From NCBI RefSeq assembly GCF_024347075.1, contig NZ_AP024900.1, positions 1,302,001 through 1,366,000 of the forward strand: DNA of 64,000 nucleotides, given 5' to 3'. Source of the stretch: Vibrio rarus (lineage in GTDB: Bacteria > Pseudomonadota > Gammaproteobacteria > Enterobacterales > Vibrionaceae). Position numbers and translations under genes: made by a program. Of this stretch, positions 338 through 9,259 are shown piece after piece. How positions within the stretch are numbered: the stretch's first letter is position 1; each line of letters begins with the position of its first letter. Below the pieces are notes generated by a model. That model searched no databases and was not told where the DNA came from. It saw nothing but the letters and a program-made list of their open reading frames with translations.

Positions 338-500
338 TTGAAAAACCAACTGAAAAAAACGGACATACAAATTCTATTGATTTCTGAGCTTATGTCTACA
401 CTCCTCATACCGTTTAAATAACAGAATTAATTATTTATTTGTGATAAACATTATTTCGATTTGAACCAATATATTGCTTTATATTCAACTTGAGTTTTTT

Positions 501-513
501 ATAAGCTTATAAA
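501..513. promoter_or_regulatory. Palindromic 13-mer upstream of dual-OB operon
   Basis: ATAAGCTTATAAA, whose first ten bases are a perfect palindrome, lies 66 bp before the start codon at 579. The identical 13-mer recurs at 2467-2479 ahead of the reverse transcriptase gene. The match is seen directly. A role as operator or promoter element shared by the two operons is inference. Confidence 0.4.
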
Positions 514-578: not shown

Positions 579-1205
579 ATGAATCACAATATTACATCAC
601 GAACATTAGTTGTTTTAGCTAACTCAGTTAAACATCATCAATGTTGCGTAGCAGGAAAATGTTTAGACACTAAAGAGTGGATACGTCCTGTTGCCAATGC
701 ACACGGTGCAGAGCTTACGCAACAACAGGCAAGCGTAACGAACCCTTATGGTGTTTACCAAGTAAAGCCACTGCAAAAGGTTAAGATGGGTTTTGAGCAA
801 GCTGTGCCTCTCAAAAATCAGCCGGAAAATTATTTGATCAATAATGTACGGTGGACACAACAATATAAAATTTCTCCGGCTGATCTACATCAGTTTTTAG
901 ATACACCTGCTTCTTTATGGGGCGTAGGGGATCGAGTGGACTATCAAGCCATTGTGCGCGGCCAGATAACCATAGGTAACTCTTTACAGTTAATTAAAGT
1001 GGAAGATCTATTGCTATACATTGATGACTATGAAAGGCGCAGAGCATCATTTTCATACAATGGTATTGAATATAATTTGGCAGTAACGGATCCAAGTTTT
1101 AATCGTTACGTCAATGATCAAAGTGACCTCATTGGCATTTTGTGCATTAGCCTTGGTGAAGAGTTTCATGGTAATTGCTACAAACTTGTAGCCGCAATTT
1201 ATTAG
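579..1205 (+). CDS. Dual-OB-domain-like protein
   Basis: A 208-residue soluble protein with no signal peptide. It opens with a strand-rich segment (SRTLVVLANSVKHHQCCVAG) and has EWIRPVAN near residue 35, a pattern I associate with the dual OB-containing domain (DuOB) family. OB folds usually bind nucleic acid or nucleotides; no catalytic residues are evident. The start has a good ribosome site (TGAGAGG). The stop is 9 bp before the next gene, and the third gene overlaps the second by 1 nt, so 579-2272 looks like one operon. The family assignment is moderate and no function is known to me. Confidence 0.6.
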   Translation: MNHNITSRTLVVLANSVKHHQCCVAGKCLDTKEWIRPVANAHGAELTQQQASVTNPYGVYQVKPLQKVKMGFEQAVPLKNQPENYLINNVRWTQQYKISPADLHQFLDTPASLWGVGDRVDYQAIVRGQITIGNSLQLIKVEDLLLYIDDYERRRASFSYNGIEYNLAVTDPSFNRYVNDQSDLIGILCISLGEEFHGNCYKLVAAIY

Positions 1206-1214
1206 GAGATTAGA

Positions 1215-1655
1215 GTGAATATTTATACTATCGGCTTTACTAAAAAAGGGGCAGAGCGCTTTTTTACACTATTGAAGCGAAACGGTGTCAAAACCTTGAT
1301 TGATGTTCGCTTAAACAATGCATCACAACTAGCAGGCTTTGCTAAGAAAAATGACCTTGCCTACTTTTTAAAGGAACTGTGCAATATAGATTATATTCAT
1401 ATGCCTAAACTGTCACCTTCAGAAGAAATCCTTAAAGGTTATAAAGCAAAAACGTTATCTTGGGCAGAATATGAGATAAGATTTAATGCTTTACTACAGC
1501 AAAGAAAAGCGGAAACGTTGCTGAGTGATGATACTCTATCAGACGCTTGTTTTTTGTGCAGTGAACATGAGGCGGATCAGTGTCATCGACGTTTAGTTGC
1601 CGAATACATTGCAAATCACTCCCCGACAGACGTAAAAATTAAGCACCTAAAATAA
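1215..1655 (+). CDS. DUF488 family protein
   Basis: A 146-residue protein starting at GTG behind TAGGAGAT. It shows the DUF488 signature: an N-terminal IYTIGFTKKGAERFF strand-helix, then TLIDVRLNN, and near the C-terminus CFLCSEHEADQCHRRLVAEY with the conserved Cys, Glu, Cys and His-Arg. DUF488 proteins are small cytosolic proteins of uncertain activity, often found near DNA-modification or nucleotide-related genes. It sits between the DuOB and DUF4326 genes, and its stop overlaps the next start in TAATG, which indicates translational coupling. Confidence 0.8.
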   Translation: MNIYTIGFTKKGAERFFTLLKRNGVKTLIDVRLNNASQLAGFAKKNDLAYFLKELCNIDYIHMPKLSPSEEILKGYKAKTLSWAEYEIRFNALLQQRKAETLLSDDTLSDACFLCSEHEADQCHRRLVAEYIANHSPTDVKIKHLK

Positions 1656-2272
1656 TGAATAAGTTACTGGTTTTATACCCGAAAGAATTTAACTGCTTTT
1701 CTAAACTAAAGCGCAAGCTCGATAGAATCATATCTAATATGGATGATGTTGGATTGCTTACTACTCAAGACGGTCATGAACTATTAAGGCGCTACGCTAA
1801 CAGCATCAACGCTACCTTTGAGAACCATAATGCTCCATTAGATACGTTAAATTTTACACATGCTGTTGTTTTTGATGACGGTGAAGCGTTTACGCGAGAA
1901 TTGGAGCAGATCACAGTACAAAGCATACCTATTCGTGTCATTAAAATTGCAGTTACACGAGTGATCAATATAAAGAACGAGATAGATTATGCCGATAAAA
2001 AAAGTACAGCAGATTACGAGTACATTGGTAGAGGCTCCTATTGGGGCAATCCTCACTCCATGTATGAGACGATGGAAGACAGTGATGAAGACCCAAGAGA
2101 AGCTGTCATTAGAATGTACAAATACGACTTTGATTACGATAAATTCTTAAACATCGATAAAACTAGGGTATTTGAATTGGCAGGTAAACGACTCGGTTGT
2201 TTCTGCAAACCACAGTTATGCCATGGTGATGTGCTCGCTGATTATCTCAATCAATGGGATGATGGGAAATAG
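1655..2272 (+). CDS. DUF4326 domain protein, SLOG-like N-terminus
   Basis: A 205-residue protein. Residues about 125-200 match DUF4326: YIGRGSYWGNPH, then a helix, then LAGKRLGCFCKPQLCHGD followed by LADYL, with paired Cys and His that could bind metal. Residues 1-110 have alternating strands and helices ending in THAVVFDDGEAF, resembling the SLOG/YspA Rossmann-like nucleotide-binding fold; that part is inference. It is the last gene of the DuOB-DUF488-DUF4326 operon. The 380-bp space after it separates this operon from the reverse transcriptase operon. Confidence 0.75.
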   Translation: MNKLLVLYPKEFNCFSKLKRKLDRIISNMDDVGLLTTQDGHELLRRYANSINATFENHNAPLDTLNFTHAVVFDDGEAFTRELEQITVQSIPIRVIKIAVTRVINIKNEIDYADKKSTADYEYIGRGSYWGNPHSMYETMEDSDEDPREAVIRMYKYDFDYDKFLNIDKTRVFELAGKRLGCFCKPQLCHGDVLADYLNQWDDGK

Positions 2273-2652
2273 TTACTTTATTCTAACCTAAGTTTTGTGC
2301 AAACAAGGCGAAAACCTTTATTCGCACTTGAACTGGAAAGGTTTAACGTGGCCACAAGTCGTTCATCTGGGCGCTTGATTTTTGTTTCATCTCACTATCG
2401 TTTCTTATCAGTCCCAGAGCGAGTAAAAGCGTTTTTTATCAAATACGTAGAAAGTTTAATTTGTTCATAAGCTTATAAAAGGTACGCGGATGCCCAGTTA
2501 AAGATATTCTATCTATATACCAAATATGAACATATCTATTTGATGGGGTTGTTATCCACAAAGTTGAATAAAGCTTCTAATTGGTAACGAAATTTAAAGA
2601 GTACGATATCCCGCCGTACTGTTTGTGATGATGCGATATTGAAGAATAAGAG
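2273..2652 (+). other. Intergenic region before the RT gene, possible leader RNA
   Basis: No convincing gene in 380 bp. It contains an 8-bp inverted repeat, AAACCTTT (2312-2319) and AAAGGTTT (2337-2344), with a 17-nt loop; the palindromic 13-mer at 2467-2479; and a short inverted repeat AGTAC (2600-2604)/GTACT (2616-2620) just before the RT start. Several defence reverse transcriptases work with a structured RNA encoded beside them, so this space is where one would sit. That is inference; I cannot fold it. Confidence 0.35.
2467..2479. promoter_or_regulatory. Palindromic 13-mer upstream of RT-CARF operon
   Basis: Exact copy of the ATAAGCTTATAAA seen at 501-513, here 173 bp upstream of the RT start codon. 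The two copies suggest co-regulation of the operons. A candidate binder is the winged-helix-like tail of the CARF protein at 4239-5375; that link is inference. Confidence 0.4.
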
Positions 2653-4242
2653 ATGGAAAAGATGTTGAAAGAATTACTGTGCAGTGAAATGAATGTGACT
2701 CGAGCCTTTGATAGTGCAATTAATGAGTGCTTTGGTTCGGGGCATACGTGTTTTCCGGGGGAAATTCGACAGGCAAAAGCCAATAGAAAACAGTTCATTA
2801 AACAGGTTCAAAAACAACTGTCACACCTTGAACAATATCAGCCCCAATATGGCTTTTACTATACGATGCCGAAAACGGACTTAGTGGACAGACAATTGGT
2901 TCACTTGCCACTGCAAGAGTTGGTGATGTTTCATTGCTTCTTGCAAGTGATAGGGGACCGATTGGATAGTCAGTTACAGGAAAATTGTTTTGCCAATCGC
3001 ATTGAACGAGACCTATCATTAAACATATTGGGTGAAGACTTTGCGCAGAAGGCATGGCCTAATTATTGTGCATGGCAACAAGATCAAGGTGAGAAACACT
3101 CTTTGATGATCAAAACGGATCTCTCTAGTTTTTTTGATAATGTCAATATAGATATTCTTATCAATAAGTTAGCTGTAAAGACCAGCACTAGTAAGAGCAG
3201 TCCGTTTTTTGAGTATTTTAGAAAATTGCTGACGAATCCTGCTCACCATTATGCTATTAGCAAACCCCAAGTTAATTCTCTTTACTTTAGGGTTCAGGGC
3301 CTCATCACAGGTCCTAAGTGCATGGGGGTTCTTGCAAATTATTACCTGATGGATATCGATAATTTAATGTCGCAATTCCCAGATGTGGAATATGGTCGTT
3401 ATGTTGATGATATTAAGTTATTTAGTAATGATAAAGCGGCTTTAATCGAGTCTTATAAGCAACTACAAAACTCTTTGTATCAATTGGGTTTGAGTATTAA
3501 CAACTCTAAAACGAAGCTGATTAATAATAATGAAGAAGTGCTTAGTGTACTCAAAGAAGAGTTGATTTCAGTCAATCACTATGGCGCTGAAGAGACTACC
3601 GAAAGAACGATTGCGACTCACACACAAGAAGCAATGGAAATGGATATTGATGAGAGTTTTGAGGATCGTGATAACTCTTATGATCTAGATAATGGCATTA
3701 ATTCAGTTTCTGATGCGAAGAAGTATTGCTTCTATCTTAGCAATCTTGACCTTAAAGAGTGGGACGTGAAACACCTGACCCATTTAGCTCTTATTTTTAA
3801 GTGTTACCCTTCATCACTCAAACACGCATGTTGGCTTATGGTACTAGCTTGGACAAAGGGAACGGGAAAAATTCAAGACATTGCGTTTAAGTTTATATCC
3901 AAGGATTTGTGGTTAGATGATTCGATACATCAATACGGTAAATCGAGAATTTTGCATCATTTAGTTAAAGAGAGACGCAATGGGTTTAGTTATTTGCAAA
4001 GCAATCAAGCTGAGTTAAAAGAAACTAATTTTGTTGATGCATTGGTCGATATTATGGTTTCTCAACGACAAGACATTACACTACTTCGTTGTTACGCTAT
4101 TGAGGCATATAGCCAAATGAAACCAGACGTCAGTCAGCCTGATATTCTCAAAGCATTCCGTACGGAAAATACCCAACTCAATAGTTCAGAGAGTCACGTA
4201 TTAGAACTAGTATTCTCCAATGACGAGGTGTTTGAATTATGA
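2653..4242 (+). CDS. Reverse transcriptase, unassigned defence-type (UG/Abi-like)
   Basis: A 529-residue protein with a reverse transcriptase palm in about residues 85-290. Motif A is MIKTDLSSFFDNV (Asp156), the motif B region is QGLITGPKCMGVLANYYL, motif C is GRYVDDIKLF (Tyr250-Asp253), and motif D is LGLSINNSKTKL. Catalytic aspartates 156, 252 and 253 are present, so polymerase activity is plausible. Residues 300-529 are mostly helical with an acidic stretch (MEMDIDESFEDRD); I see no maturase X, HNH, Cas1 or Cas6 domain and no HEPN motif. That argues against a group II intron or a CRISPR-adaptation RT and fits the UG/Abi type. Its TGA overlaps the CARF start by 4 nt. Confidence 0.85.
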   Translation: MEKMLKELLCSEMNVTRAFDSAINECFGSGHTCFPGEIRQAKANRKQFIKQVQKQLSHLEQYQPQYGFYYTMPKTDLVDRQLVHLPLQELVMFHCFLQVIGDRLDSQLQENCFANRIERDLSLNILGEDFAQKAWPNYCAWQQDQGEKHSLMIKTDLSSFFDNVNIDILINKLAVKTSTSKSSPFFEYFRKLLTNPAHHYAISKPQVNSLYFRVQGLITGPKCMGVLANYYLMDIDNLMSQFPDVEYGRYVDDIKLFSNDKAALIESYKQLQNSLYQLGLSINNSKTKLINNNEEVLSVLKEELISVNHYGAEETTERTIATHTQEAMEMDIDESFEDRDNSYDLDNGINSVSDAKKYCFYLSNLDLKEWDVKHLTHLALIFKCYPSSLKHACWLMVLAWTKGTGKIQDIAFKFISKDLWLDDSIHQYGKSRILHHLVKERRNGFSYLQSNQAELKETNFVDALVDIMVSQRQDITLLRCYAIEAYSQMKPDVSQPDILKAFRTENTQLNSSESHVLELVFSNDEVFEL

Positions 4243-5375
4243 AAAATGTGCTCGTAGCGGTGACAGGCGCTAGCCCCCAAGTGTTGACTGAAACAATTTA
4301 TGCATTGGACCAACAGGGTAAGCCTCTACCAGAAGAAGTGTTTGTCATTACGACGAAAACATCCGAGCAAACCCTAGTGAATGGCTTGTTTAAAGACGGC
4401 TATTGGCAGAAGCTTTTAGATGAATATGAGTTAGGTAATATTTCATTTAGCCAGTCAAATATCTGGTGTATTGCGGATGATAATGGGACGTTGGTTGATG
4501 ATGCTAAGTCGGAAGAAGACCAATCCATTATGGCTAATTACATTACTCGTAAGGTAGCCGAGCTAACGGCCCAAGAAGACATTGCCATTCATGCCTCTAT
4601 TGCTGGTGGGCGTAAAACAATGGCGTTTTATATGGGCTACGCCATGTCTTTATATGGTCGAGAGCAAGACGTATTAAGCCATGTTTTTGTGAATGATGAA
4701 TTTGAATTTGTTAGAGATTTTTTCTTTCCCACAAAAGATGATAATTGGATTTCTGGGAAAAATGGCCAAGGTAAGCTCAATACCAAACTTGCCAACGTTA
4801 CATTGGCTGAAATCCCGTTTGTACGTATGCGCAAACAATTTGAATCCAAATTATTAGAACAAATTGAAGAGCAAACATTCTCAAAAACTGTCGCTATCAT
4901 GAATAATGCAGCAACAGAGAAAGTCGAGGTAAGAGTTAATACTAAGAACCGATCTATTTCAGTATTAGGGATAGACATTAAAGTTTCAGCAAAGTTATTG
5001 GCATTGTACCTGCTGATTTTAAAGCAACCACATCGCACAATAAAAACGGGCTCTAGATTTGTTAAGGAAGTAGACTACAGTAAGCAATATTTACATGAGT
5101 TCTATGCTATGAAGGGTGATGCGCGAGTATATAGCACGTTCGGCCTGGAAGATGTGATTGATTGGCAGCAAGGTAACTTAGGAAACCTGAAAGCGATGCA
5201 AGCAAAATTTGTGCAAGAGGTACTTAGTCAGTTTCATTCAAAGCTTTGCAAGAATTTACCAGCGGAAGCATTGGATAAAATCAAAGTCCATTCAGATGGC
5301 GCTAAAGGTGGGGCTACTTACCATATTGATAGTGCGTTAGATGTCACTGTTGAAGGGGCTCTAAGTATTATCTGA
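4239..5375 (+). CDS. CARF-domain protein, Cas_NE0113 family, wHTH-like C-terminus
   Basis: A 378-residue protein. Residues 1-205 match the CRISPR-associated NE0113 family: KNVLVAVTGASPQVLTETI at the N-terminus, VFVITTKTSEQ, then IAGGRKTMAFYMGYAMSLYG with GGRKT at 123-127, and VLSHVFVNDEFEF. CARF domains bind cyclic oligoadenylates made by type III CRISPR Cas10. Residues about 230-300 (NRSISVLGIDIKVSAKLLA and following) look like a winged helix; no HEPN, PD-ExK or RelE-like nuclease motif is visible. It is coupled to the RT gene by a 4-nt overlap. No cas gene or array is seen nearby, so the ligand source is unknown. The family call is firm; the role is not. Confidence 0.85.
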   Translation: MKNVLVAVTGASPQVLTETIYALDQQGKPLPEEVFVITTKTSEQTLVNGLFKDGYWQKLLDEYELGNISFSQSNIWCIADDNGTLVDDAKSEEDQSIMANYITRKVAELTAQEDIAIHASIAGGRKTMAFYMGYAMSLYGREQDVLSHVFVNDEFEFVRDFFFPTKDDNWISGKNGQGKLNTKLANVTLAEIPFVRMRKQFESKLLEQIEEQTFSKTVAIMNNAATEKVEVRVNTKNRSISVLGIDIKVSAKLLALYLLILKQPHRTIKTGSRFVKEVDYSKQYLHEFYAMKGDARVYSTFGLEDVIDWQQGNLGNLKAMQAKFVQEVLSQFHSKLCKNLPAEALDKIKVHSDGAKGGATYHIDSALDVTVEGALSII

Positions 5376-6792: not shown

Positions 6793-6853
6793 CCACCTTT
6801 ATTTGACAGTCATTGTGTACTTATAATACACTGCAGCTGTCAAATAAAGGTGG
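6793..6853. promoter_or_regulatory. Perfect 17-bp inverted repeat around MerR promoter
   Basis: CCACCTTTATTTGACAG (6793-6809) and CTGTCAAATAAAGGTGG (6837-6853) are exact reverse complements 27 bp apart. A TATAAT hexamer lies between them (6822-6827), and the right arm contains the ribosome-binding site AAAGGTGG of the MerR gene starting at 6858. Half-site centres are 44 bp apart, about four helical turns, which suits a dimeric or tetrameric operator on one DNA face. An alternative is an RNA hairpin hiding the ribosome site if transcription starts upstream of 6793. Confidence 0.6.
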
Positions 6854-6857
6854 CTAT

Positions 6858-7244
6858 ATGAAAGAGTACACGATGCAGCAGTTGTCCGAGTTAACGGATC
6901 TGCCAGTTAGAACCATCAGGTTTTACATACAAAAGGGACTTGTTGATAGGCCTATTGGCGAACGAAAAGGTGCGAAATATAACGAAGACCATGTTGCGCA
7001 GTGTTTAAAAATTAAGAAGTGGACGGCGGCGGGGTTATCCCTTGATAAAGTAGCGCAAGCCCTTGTTGAACCACCATTAGAACTCCCTACACCACCAAAG
7101 AAAACCGGTGATGTATCGATGAAAACATGCATACATCTCGCAGAGGGAGTTGAGTTAATAATCGATTCGGATATCGCACAGTTGTCAGCCAGTGACATTA
7201 GAAGCTTGGCAAATACCATTATCAGTCAGTTGGGAAATAAATAA
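6858..7244 (+). CDS. MerR-family transcriptional regulator
   Basis: I place the start at ATG 6858 behind AAAGGTGG; an in-frame upstream codon at 6813 would lie inside the inverted repeat. The 128-residue product begins MKEYTMQQLSELTDLPVRTI, the MerR helix-turn-helix, then RFYIQKGLV and a second-wing pattern to about residue 70. The C-terminal part is short, without a Cys-rich metal-binding loop, so the effector is unknown. Its stop overlaps the VIT/VWA start in TAATG, so the pair is translationally coupled. The upstream inverted repeat suggests autoregulation. Confidence 0.85.
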   Translation: MKEYTMQQLSELTDLPVRTIRFYIQKGLVDRPIGERKGAKYNEDHVAQCLKIKKWTAAGLSLDKVAQALVEPPLELPTPPKKTGDVSMKTCIHLAEGVELIIDSDIAQLSASDIRSLANTIISQLGNK

Positions 7245-9259
7245 TGAATGTAACGACTTCTTCTCCTTTGCAAGGTGCTTCAATTTTAGTTGATGTCAAT
7301 CTGCCGTGTGCGTCAACGCGTTTAACTCAAACTTTTATTAATGACAGTGATAGTGTCATTGAAGCGGTGTATCAATTTCCTGTTCCTCGTAATGCAGTGC
7401 TTGGTAATGTAAATGTTGTGATTGCAGGTAAAGCATATAAAGGTCAAGTTTTAGCAAAACATAGAGCAGAACAATCCTACGAGCAGGGAGTCTCAGAAGG
7501 CAAGCGCGCCGTGCTTATTTCTGATGTTGGTGATGGTCTTTATGAAGTTAATCTGGGAAATCTTGGTTGTAATGAGAGTGCTGAAATAGAGCTCTACATA
7601 CATCAAATGCTGACTTTTGATAATGCTCAAGCGAAATACTATTTACCTACAGTGATTGCCCCTAAGTACGGCAGTAGCCAGTTAAGCGTTGAACACCAAC
7701 CAAAGAGCAATGCATTGGTTGAGTATGCGTTTACAGGCCAAATTAATATGCCAAGAGGCTCGAAGCTGATTTCAGGCTCTCATAAATTAGATATTCAAAA
7801 TGAAGTTGGATTTTTTTGCGGATTCCTAGATCAAGATATTAGCTTTAGTTTTGATGCCGCTTCAATGACAAGTTCAGCTATTAGTGTCGAGCATGATGGT
7901 GGCTATTCGCTGATGGGCTGTGTTGCAGCTCCGAATGTTTCTGTCGATTCTTCTGCCGAACGCGCCGTTCAGCTATTGGTTGACTGCTCTGGTTCTATGG
8001 GGGGAGTGTCAATGGACCATTTAAAAAATGGTCTTGAAGAAGCTCTCTTAGATATACCTTTAAGTCGTAAACTCAACATTATTAAGTATGGCTCTTGTCA
8101 TGAAAGCTTGTTCAATGAGCCTCGCGAGTTTAACGGAATATTCAAAGAGACTATTGAGCAATGTGTTACAGGGCTACAAGCAAATATGGGGGGTACTGAA
8201 ATCTACAGCGCTTTGGAAACGGCGTTGTCTCAGGTTGCCAAATCTGGAATGCCCTCTGACATAATACTAATAACCGACGGTCAAGTATGGGAACAAGACA
8301 ATAGGCTTGAAAAGCTGTTCGCTCAAGCTCAACAATTAGGTGTACGTATATTTTGTATAGGGGTGGGGTATGCTATCTCTGAGAGTATTTTACAAAAAAT
8401 GTCACAGAGAACCGATGGCACTCTCAGTCTAGTTAATCCTCATGAGAATATGGCGAATGCTATTTGTGATGTAATGGCCAAGTCTCAATTTGGTGGAATG
8501 CAAATAGACGTTAATATAGCCGCCGATCACACCGCTTTTGTCGAACACACGAAGTTTATCTACGGTCGTCAGATGGTGCCATTTTTTGCAAGAAGTTTAT
8601 GTCAACCTTATACGGTCAATGTCAGTATGGGGAATCGAACTGAGCAAATTAAGGTACTTGCTGCTACCGATCCCAGCGTGAAAGCTGTAAAGCAATTGGT
8701 CGCGAACCGCTATATTCAGAATTTAGAAGAATTAGAAGCGACTCAATATGCTGTATTGCAAGGGATAGTAACCCAACATACCAGTTATGTTATGGTAAGC
8801 GCTGAAGTGGTAGAAAATGCAGATGGAATGCCAGAACTGCATCAGGTATCGCAGATGCAAAAAAGAAGCTCGCCAATTAATAATAAAATACAAACATGTG
8901 CCAGTATGTTATATATGAAAGCACAATTGTGTGATGATTTTAGACACCGAGACGTCGAAGTTGACTGTGAAATTTCAATGTCAATGAGCTGTGAGCCCAT
9001 TATCGAATATGATTTTGATTTGAAGGAAATAGAACAATACTTAGACAGAAGACATCCGAATGCGATGCCTGTAAAATCTGTGTTATTGGTGTCGTTCCTA
9101 ACTTCAAAAGGATTTGATGTAGAGGCAGTGCACAGCGATCTAGATGAGGCGCAGTATTGTGCCACATTCTTGCTGGAACTTGCAGACAAGGAAAGCTTTG
9201 TTTTCTCGACAAGGGTACAAGCACTGCTTGAGTCTATAAGGCAATCAGCCGTCGTTTAA
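7244..9259 (+). CDS. VIT- and VWA-domain protein
   Basis: A 671-residue protein. Residues 1-135 form a vault/inter-alpha-trypsin (VIT) domain (QTFINDSDSVIEAVYQFPVP, GKAYKGQVLAKHRAEQSYEQ). A von Willebrand A domain starts near residue 243 with the MIDAS sequence LLVDCSGSMGG (DxSxS) and includes GGTEIYSALE (MIDAS Thr) and IILITDGQVW (MIDAS Asp). A C-terminal region of about 200 residues follows. No signal peptide, sortase signal or membrane helix is visible, so it is probably cytosolic. It is co-expressed with the MerR regulator; the function of such bacterial VIT-VWA proteins is generally unknown. Confidence 0.85.
   Translation: MNVTTSSPLQGASILVDVNLPCASTRLTQTFINDSDSVIEAVYQFPVPRNAVLGNVNVVIAGKAYKGQVLAKHRAEQSYEQGVSEGKRAVLISDVGDGLYEVNLGNLGCNESAEIELYIHQMLTFDNAQAKYYLPTVIAPKYGSSQLSVEHQPKSNALVEYAFTGQINMPRGSKLISGSHKLDIQNEVGFFCGFLDQDISFSFDAASMTSSAISVEHDGGYSLMGCVAAPNVSVDSSAERAVQLLVDCSGSMGGVSMDHLKNGLEEALLDIPLSRKLNIIKYGSCHESLFNEPREFNGIFKETIEQCVTGLQANMGGTEIYSALETALSQVAKSGMPSDIILITDGQVWEQDNRLEKLFAQAQQLGVRIFCIGVGYAISESILQKMSQRTDGTLSLVNPHENMANAICDVMAKSQFGGMQIDVNIAADHTAFVEHTKFIYGRQMVPFFARSLCQPYTVNVSMGNRTEQIKVLAATDPSVKAVKQLVANRYIQNLEELEATQYAVLQGIVTQHTSYVMVSAEVVENADGMPELHQVSQMQKRSSPINNKIQTCASMLYMKAQLCDDFRHRDVEVDCEISMSMSCEPIIEYDFDLKEIEQYLDRRHPNAMPVKSVLLVSFLTSKGFDVEAVHSDLDEAQYCATFLLELADKESFVFSTRVQALLESIRQSAVV

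Follow-up and report, generated by a model that had tools for sequence, protein, structure and literature searches.

The window (the whole stretch of 64,000 nucleotides of Vibrio rarus DNA analysed here) comes from a genome of 3.88 Mb in 3 contigs, whose closest protein relatives are those of Vibrio species. Two groups of genes are considered in this work: a gene for a reverse transcriptase (RT) followed by one for a CARF protein, and, upstream of them, a three-gene DuOB / DUF488 / mSLOG-DUF4326 operon whose first two products are phage-defence candidates in PADLOC. Together with two copies of a palindrome, the features are as follows.

498..513, no strand: palindrome TTTATAAGCTTATAAA, second candidate operator, starting 81 bp upstream of the DuOB gene
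579..1205, + strand: DuOB-domain protein (PADLOC PDC-M45A), encoded by the gene that opens the adjacent candidate defence operon
1215..1655, + strand: DUF488 protein (PADLOC PDC-M45C)
1655..2272, + strand: mSLOG + DUF4326 protein, matched by no PADLOC model
2464..2479, no strand: palindrome TTCATAAGCTTATAAA, candidate operator, with its middle 182 bp upstream of the RT start
2653..4242, + strand: 529-aa reverse transcriptase matched by the PADLOC profile RT_UG34 (UG/Abi, DRT), its C-terminal region helical
4239..5375, + strand: CARF protein of the NE0113 / PADLOC CARF5 family, 378 aa (profile match)
Parts of the CARF protein: CARF domain at about residues 1-200, putative winged-helix-like C-terminal region at about 229-378, no recognised effector domain

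The reverse transcriptase and its CARF partner

The original prediction described an RT/CARF pair with overlapping genes and intact RT catalytic motifs, and this description is confirmed by the list of open reading frames, in which ORFs 2653-4242 and 4239-5375 share 4 nt, by the Pfam and PADLOC profiles, and by alignment. The two genes would form a two-gene operon with the RT as effector, as part of the overall explanation given below, towards which we lean slightly. Such a pair is not found in the available excerpts of the literature on defence-associated reverse transcriptases and CARF proteins.

Among the UG, Abi and DRT classes to which the original prediction had pointed, UG34 is the best match of the RT. 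The PADLOC profile RT_UG34 covers residues 3-510 of 529 with an E value of 3.4e-167 (runner-up class, E 7e-32) and scores 555 bits, against 65 bits for the sole CRISPR-acquisition RT model among the 25 models listed. The window RT resembles this class in profile, length and catalytic motifs, and the catalytic residues D156, D252 and D253 (YVDD) are invariant across 10 aligned sequences. AbiA and AbiK carry an alpha-helical C-terminal domain; in the predicted structure of the window RT (model pLDDT 76) helices are found from residue 352 to 520, and the alignment with AbiA spans residues 3-511, but with 265 residues aligned. The RT tail gave Pfam matches below the cut-off only. The 380-nt gap on the 5' side of the RT gene has no unusual folding (z -0.86) and no Rfam match, and a structured non-coding RNA at this place was dropped as a candidate because neither the folding z-score nor Rfam supported it. 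The RT may act by blocking phages. The class was reportedly defined in a 2022 paper by Mestre et al., and a literature search for UG34 reverse transcriptases returned unrelated matches only.

The CARF protein matches Pfam PF09623 with 155.1 bits (cut-off 23) and TIGR02584 with 218.1 bits (cut-off 80.65), and has the CARF fold expected of a regulator that joins CARF to a winged helix-turn-helix (wHTH). Beyond this domain, the alignment reveals a region of about 150 residues common to the family, and the order of secondary structure in the tail is compatible with a wHTH, although no Pfam HTH family was matched and the scan of the tail gave only matches below the cut-off. Neither the full protein nor its tail matched a HEPN family in Pfam, and no further Pfam domain at cut-off, such as an effector nuclease, was found in the protein; its sole R-x4-6-H stretch, at 141-148, sits within the CARF domain, although family members conserve it. 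Ring nucleases too have the CARF fold, by fold similarity, and the NCBI family carries the name 'ring nuclease Csm6', while a PDB sequence search with the protein gave no match. NE0113 CARF proteins, which lack C-terminal effector domains, are predicted to be transcription regulators in the excerpt available of Makarova et al. 2014 (PMC4012209).

Regarding CRISPR, the genome holds a type II-B locus 860 kb from the pair, to which its Cas1 belongs, and there is no CRISPR-like array near the pair among the repeats listed. Cas10 was not detected in this genome with TIGR02578 (Csm1), TIGR02577 (Cmr2), PF22335 (Cas10 palm) or a Vibrionaceae Cas10 protein as query. TIGR02577 is insensitive here, since it misses even the Cas10 that PF22335 and the protein search detect in genome G042, and for this reason it was replaced by the G042 Cas10 protein as query; PF22335 is unspecific, with matches in E. 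coli too, and the window genome (G000) is still without any match. The possibility, raised with the original prediction, that a Cas10 or type III locus adjoins the window is therefore not borne out, Cas10 being undetected anywhere in the genome, and the claim that a defence-class RT is tied to a CARF protein without a detected type III CRISPR system gains support. Because Cas10 went undetected, a type III cyclic oligoadenylate produced by the cell itself is an unlikely ligand for CARF.

Distribution and neighbours of the two genes

The CARF gene occurs in 41 of 329 Vibrionaceae genomes, as a full-length form (match over the full profile) in 36, as a divergent form in 7, and as both in 2; the 36 include G009, in which the gene is partial, apparently cut by a contig end, and for which no locus was fetched. 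Cas10 was not found in 34 of the 36 genomes with the full-length form and was found in all 7 with the divergent form, so that the Cas10-bearing genomes among the 41 are exactly these seven. The full-length CARF is therefore mostly not a CRISPR partner. The divergent proteins of the five loci examined out of seven (G286 and G070:C84 were left out) are 334-538 aa long, and a relative of this form on an annotated Aeromonas plasmid lies inside a type III-B locus. The CARF gene was found in 10 plasmid records and was not found in the viral contigs or phages searched.

The RT model matches two of the 329 Vibrionaceae genomes, the window genome and G105, a second Vibrio, where the copy is frame-disrupted. 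Among 394 genomes of the order (the window genome again included) there is one further match, G631, at the place of the Shewanella locus L009. Six RT relatives at E <1e-50 come from named genomes (L009-L014), and RT_UG34 is the best profile in all five that were scanned; unlike the window RT, all six come without a CARF gene in the DNA retrieved for them, which for L011 and L014 consists of short pieces. The broken RT of G105 is preceded by PDC-M26A and PDC-M26B, as is the RT in L011 (partners 47% and 38% identical), and the CARF gene lies about 19 kb away. No close UG34 relatives are present in viral contigs, where the best of 66 loci has 24% identity (E 8e-10), and the RT search of plasmids returned two group II intron RTs. 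Four of 11 RT protein clusters, the window's included, appear to lie on one contig with a CARF of this family, as judged by the equal size of the longest contigs (2846978, 91482, 2482 and 6147 bases) in a comparison with the best 120 of 658 CARF clusters, direct adjacency being shown only in the window; the 2482-base contig is largely taken up by a partial RT of 306 aa and a CARF of 382 aa.

The neighbours of the CARF gene were surveyed over about 8 kb around it in 35 full-length loci, one per genome and without G009, and in the divergent loci, with families assigned from one member per cluster. No family except CARF itself occurs in more than 9 of the surveyed stretches. The commonest setting consists of ZorA/B/C-like genes and HsdR (strong PADLOC matches for the former, with NCBIfam matches below the cut-offs): a ZorC-family gene is directly upstream of CARF in 7/35 loci, and an HsdR-family gene is next or second downstream in 8/35. 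Other neighbours are Druantia III DruE, McrBC, dynamin-like GTPases, VWA proteins, an ADP-ribosylglycohydrolase with a phosphoesterase, and an NsnB/AriA-like ATPase. For the gene pair containing the ATPase, adjacent to CARF in L214 and L216, an assignment to PARIS was considered and not made, because NsnB scored above AriA and the second gene matched nothing. The DuOB-DUF488-mSLOG cassette of the window is found again in L190 at 74-84% identity.

These distributions leave the dedicated RT-plus-sensor machine of the original prediction unsupported: the CARF gene is present in 41 Vibrionaceae genomes against two for the RT and stands beside many unrelated defence modules, the UG34 RTs of L009-L014 have no CARF in the DNA fetched, and the broken RT of G105 follows other defence candidates at a distance from CARF. 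The concern that the pair is a rare accident holds for the exact pair, which is rare, but not for the company that CARF keeps with defence genes, which is not random. The CARF protein is probably a signal-responsive switch for defence gene clusters in marine relatives of Vibrio, and not a CRISPR part.

The palindrome in CARF loci and in whole genomes

A repeat search of the window returned a 24-mer common to the upstream regions of the DuOB and RT operons, with a palindrome of 16 bp. Its core, ATAAGCTTAT, has 12 sites in the whole genome (3.88 Mb), against 6 for the reversed pattern. Three of the 12 fall within 5.4 kb, with a rough chance estimate of 0.001; two of these lie in the window, and the third precedes the gene L003:17153. 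Each of these three clustered sites is intergenic and upstream of a + strand gene. Among the matches listed, and in the excerpts available, TAAGCTTA was not found in the literature on the palindrome.

The consensus TTYATAAGCTTATRAA, derived from the two window sites alone, offers an independent test on the 34 other CARF loci (571,526 bases, 65,013 of them intergenic). At no more than one mismatch it has 13 intergenic sites in 13 of the 34 loci, at no more than two 21 sites in 19 loci, and at no more than three 40 sites in 25 loci. For 400 palindromes with shuffled half-sites, the means at the same three thresholds are 0.04, 0.44 and 4.0 and the maxima 8, 17 and 29, and none of the 400 reached the observed values. 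A broader consensus, TTYRTAAGCTTAYRAA, gives 27 intergenic sites in 21/35 loci at no more than one mismatch (reversed control, 0), a result that is not independent because the pattern was refined on those loci; the other 14 of the 35 have no intergenic site at this threshold within about 8 kb. In 12/35 loci such a site stands no more than 350 bp upstream of CARF itself or of another gene in the predicted CARF operon (reversed control, 0), and in 15 loci at two mismatches (reversed control, 1), and such positions, upstream of what is predicted to be CARF's own operon, fit autoregulation. In L190, a two-mismatch site stands 81 bp before DuOB, the same distance as in the window, and in G105 an exact site stands 92 bp upstream of the first gene in the run containing the RT remnant. 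Outside this set, a Photobacterium damselae plasmid carries a one-mismatch site 84 bp before the gene preceding CARF and a two-mismatch site 82 bp before another gene upstream of CARF. The five divergent-CARF stretches have one single-mismatch site, inside the CARF gene of L224.

At the level of whole genomes, sites with one mismatch are in excess where the full-length CARF is present: 3.42 per genome in 36 such genomes, against 1.34 in 35 CARF-less Vibrio and 1.20 in 5 genomes with the divergent form alone, the reversed-pattern control being 1.42, 1.03 and 1.00, respectively. The difference between CARF-bearing and CARF-less genomes has a Mann-Whitney p of 1.7e-7 (2.6e-6 for Vibrio only, 22 vs 35); the comparison is not fully independent, as the broader consensus was partly built from CARF-bearing genomes, and the CARF-less genomes are those reported as non-matching in the profile searches and not a random draw. 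In 16 of the 36 CARF-bearing genomes, for which all sites were listed, 23 of 49 sites fall within 31 kb of CARF, a span that makes up no more than 1.3% of the sequence; a site this close is present in 13 of the 16. Sites also exist without CARF. Four of the 11 CARF-less sites examined are one-mismatch sites either upstream of an sbcD-like gene, named by eye (G115, G116 and G120), or where a C19-family gene begins that is followed by Zorya-like genes (G115), with no CARF in those stretches and none in the genomes at E 1e-60. The motif may therefore belong to a different or additional regulator.

Proposed regulation of defence islands and competing readings

The explanation that we favour, at somewhat better than even chances, is that the CARF protein regulates the transcription of defence islands under the control of a ligand, with the RT-CARF operon among its targets. 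As a dimer, CARF would recognise the palindrome TTYRTAAGCTTAYRAA in front of its own operon and in front of defence genes nearby, the latter being here the DuOB-DUF488-mSLOG operon and a gene 5 kb left of the RT. A nucleotide infection signal held in the CARF pocket would then change target expression, by activation or by repression; other nucleotides than cyclic oligoadenylate, such as CBASS products or RNA ends with a cyclic phosphate, may serve as ligands. The data establish the genes, their domain assignments, the negative outcome of four Cas10 searches, and the recurrence of the palindrome in CARF loci with its excess in CARF-bearing genomes; dimerisation, binding to the palindrome and control of that binding by a ligand are predicted. 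Against this reading count the CARF-less sites, the 14/35 loci without a site, the lack of an HTH match and the ring-nuclease-type fold and name.

That the two genes are ordinary accessory genes of a type III CRISPR system, namely a Csm6-like protein and a spacer-acquisition RT, is suggested by the family names and is highly improbable: this reading was rejected as the Csm1, palm-domain and Cas10 protein searches found no Cas10 (the fourth model, TIGR02577, being insensitive), no HEPN domain was recognised, the RT scores far higher as UG34 than as a CRISPR-acquisition RT, and Cas1 is part of the type II-B locus. A dedicated signalling pair, with CARF in direct contact with the RT or with the RT's product and either gating the RT or being triggered by it, draws on the gene overlap, which no other surveyed CARF gene shows with an upstream ORF of at least 100 aa, and on the apparent sharing of contigs by four of the 11 RT clusters (with the best 120 of 658 CARF clusters). 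We nevertheless judge it unlikely, for CARF stands without an RT in 34/35 fetched loci within about 8 kb (in G105 the broken RT is 19 kb off), and the UG34 RTs of L009-L014 are without CARF. Moreover, the RT P0006 is 42% identical to the window RT, while the CARF P0014, on a contig of equal size, is 85% identical to the window CARF, and the CARF going with the RT P0004 falls in another sequence group of the alignment; RT and CARF therefore do not seem to track each other. As partners seem to be freely exchanged, a regulator is the likelier of the two, though the RT and the sensor may form a machine of their own.

Two further readings separate CARF from the RT altogether. The pair may be chance neighbours, a UG34 RT system and a CARF that act separately and came to lie in one defence island, the palindrome being the site of some other regulator; defence islands do gather unrelated systems, the pair is rare, and one-mismatch sites occur in CARF-less genomes, some upstream of conserved genes. 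The translational overlap, the apparently repeated RT/CARF pairing and a motif frequency near background in CARF-less genomes overall (1.34 vs 1.03 in the control) speak against it, and we regard this coincidence as improbable. About equally improbable is that CARF works alone as a ring nuclease, ending a nucleotide signal, and stands beside the RT only incidentally; the extra region of about 150 residues common to the family argues against it, no Cas10 was found to make cyclic oligoadenylate, and the palindrome would be left unexplained.

The regulator reading has several relatives among described systems, compared here through excerpts of the cited papers. For the NE0113 family itself, direct transcription control was predicted in PMC4012209, where the excerpt holds no operator or regulon for this CARF and the main text has 0 occurrences of 'reverse transcriptase'; the present data fit that prediction and supply a candidate operator and a candidate regulon including the UG34 RT operon. 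Csa3 proteins are CARF-wHTH transcription factors of Sulfolobales CRISPR that recognise cA4 (PMC8699464, PMC8844856); like them, the window CARF has a CARF domain followed by a C-terminal region without a recognised effector domain and a role, predicted here, in transcription regulation, whereas Csa3 is CRISPR-associated and the window family sits in non-CRISPR islands without Cas10, with a wHTH that is only suggested. RtcR-like CARF regulators head superoperons of CoCoNuT, type I restriction-modification (RM) and Druantia, and multi-system control has been proposed for them (PMC11090510); they share with the window CARF family the company of type I RM and Druantia III, but are CARF-ATPase-HTH proteins at the 5' end, while the window family has no ATPase domain and often follows the module. 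The WYL-domain regulators of defence islands (PMC9122601) are likewise of a ligand-binding type and co-localised with diverse defence systems, with a sensor domain that differs from CARF.

Carried further, and more tentatively, the CARF protein may be, outside CRISPR, a nucleotide-responsive master regulator of the multi-system defence islands of Vibrionaceae, with its own 16-bp palindromic operator, one regulon that joins Zorya, type I RM, Druantia, McrBC, DuOB-mSLOG cassettes and the RT, and a messenger that does not come from Cas10, into which the nucleic-acid products of the RT could feed back; we hold this wider picture to be possible though less likely than not. Little is known about how defence islands are switched on. 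A CARF regulator of this kind would suggest CARF signalling without Cas10, which raises the question of the ligand, and, with a predictable operator, it would define a regulon open to direct testing, in which a reverse transcriptase is linked to unrelated antiviral systems.

Defence and neighbouring genes of the source genome

The Vibrio rarus genome that carries the RT-CARF pair holds further loci of note, among them a type II-B CRISPR locus and a second CARF paralogue that lies 3.9 kb to the left of the window, as listed here.

L008:10146-16238 (G000:C1:2168146-2174238), type II-B CRISPR locus with Cas9/Csx12, Cas1, Cas2 and Cas4
L003:14895-16097 (G000:C1:1296895-1298097), second CARF paralogue
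window 6813-9259, MerR-type regulator, then a protein with VIT and VWA domains

The last two genes, within the window, share a 1-nt overlap. The CARF paralogue is a member of the other sequence group, not that of the window CARF, and is followed by a 241-aa and then a 306-aa protein, of families C30 and C19, respectively. Searches of Pfam and PADLOC returned no match for either, and C30, judged by eye, looks like a PD-(D/E)XK nuclease. Both families are found again in CARF loci, several times downstream of a palindrome site.

CARF genes and the palindrome in other genomes

In six loci (L194, L206, L208, L212, L215 and L219) the CARF gene, at about position 8000-9100, has a Zorya-like block on one side and a type I RM operon on the other, in the order ZorC-CARF-HsdR. 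In L191, L194, L206, L207 and L212 the CARF gene contains, within its 3' end, a TAAGCTTA core that precedes the following gene by 126-239 bp. A conserved TTCACAAGCTTATAAA site also occurs directly 5' of an sbcD-like gene in three Vibrio genomes that lack CARF (L229:10001, L231:9001 and L233:9001).

Surroundings of the UG34 RT in relatives

Behind (3' of) the Shewanella UG34 RT there is a gap of ~1.1 kb (L009:11597-12689) with no listed ORF of at least 70 aa, which could possibly house a non-coding RNA. Elsewhere, the UG34 RT is in line with PDC-M26A and PDC-M26B.

L217:7947-14508, a Vibrio
L011:114-6515, a Methyloprofundus

PDC-M26A/PDC-M26B is thus, from these two loci, a second recurrent partner of the UG34 RT class.
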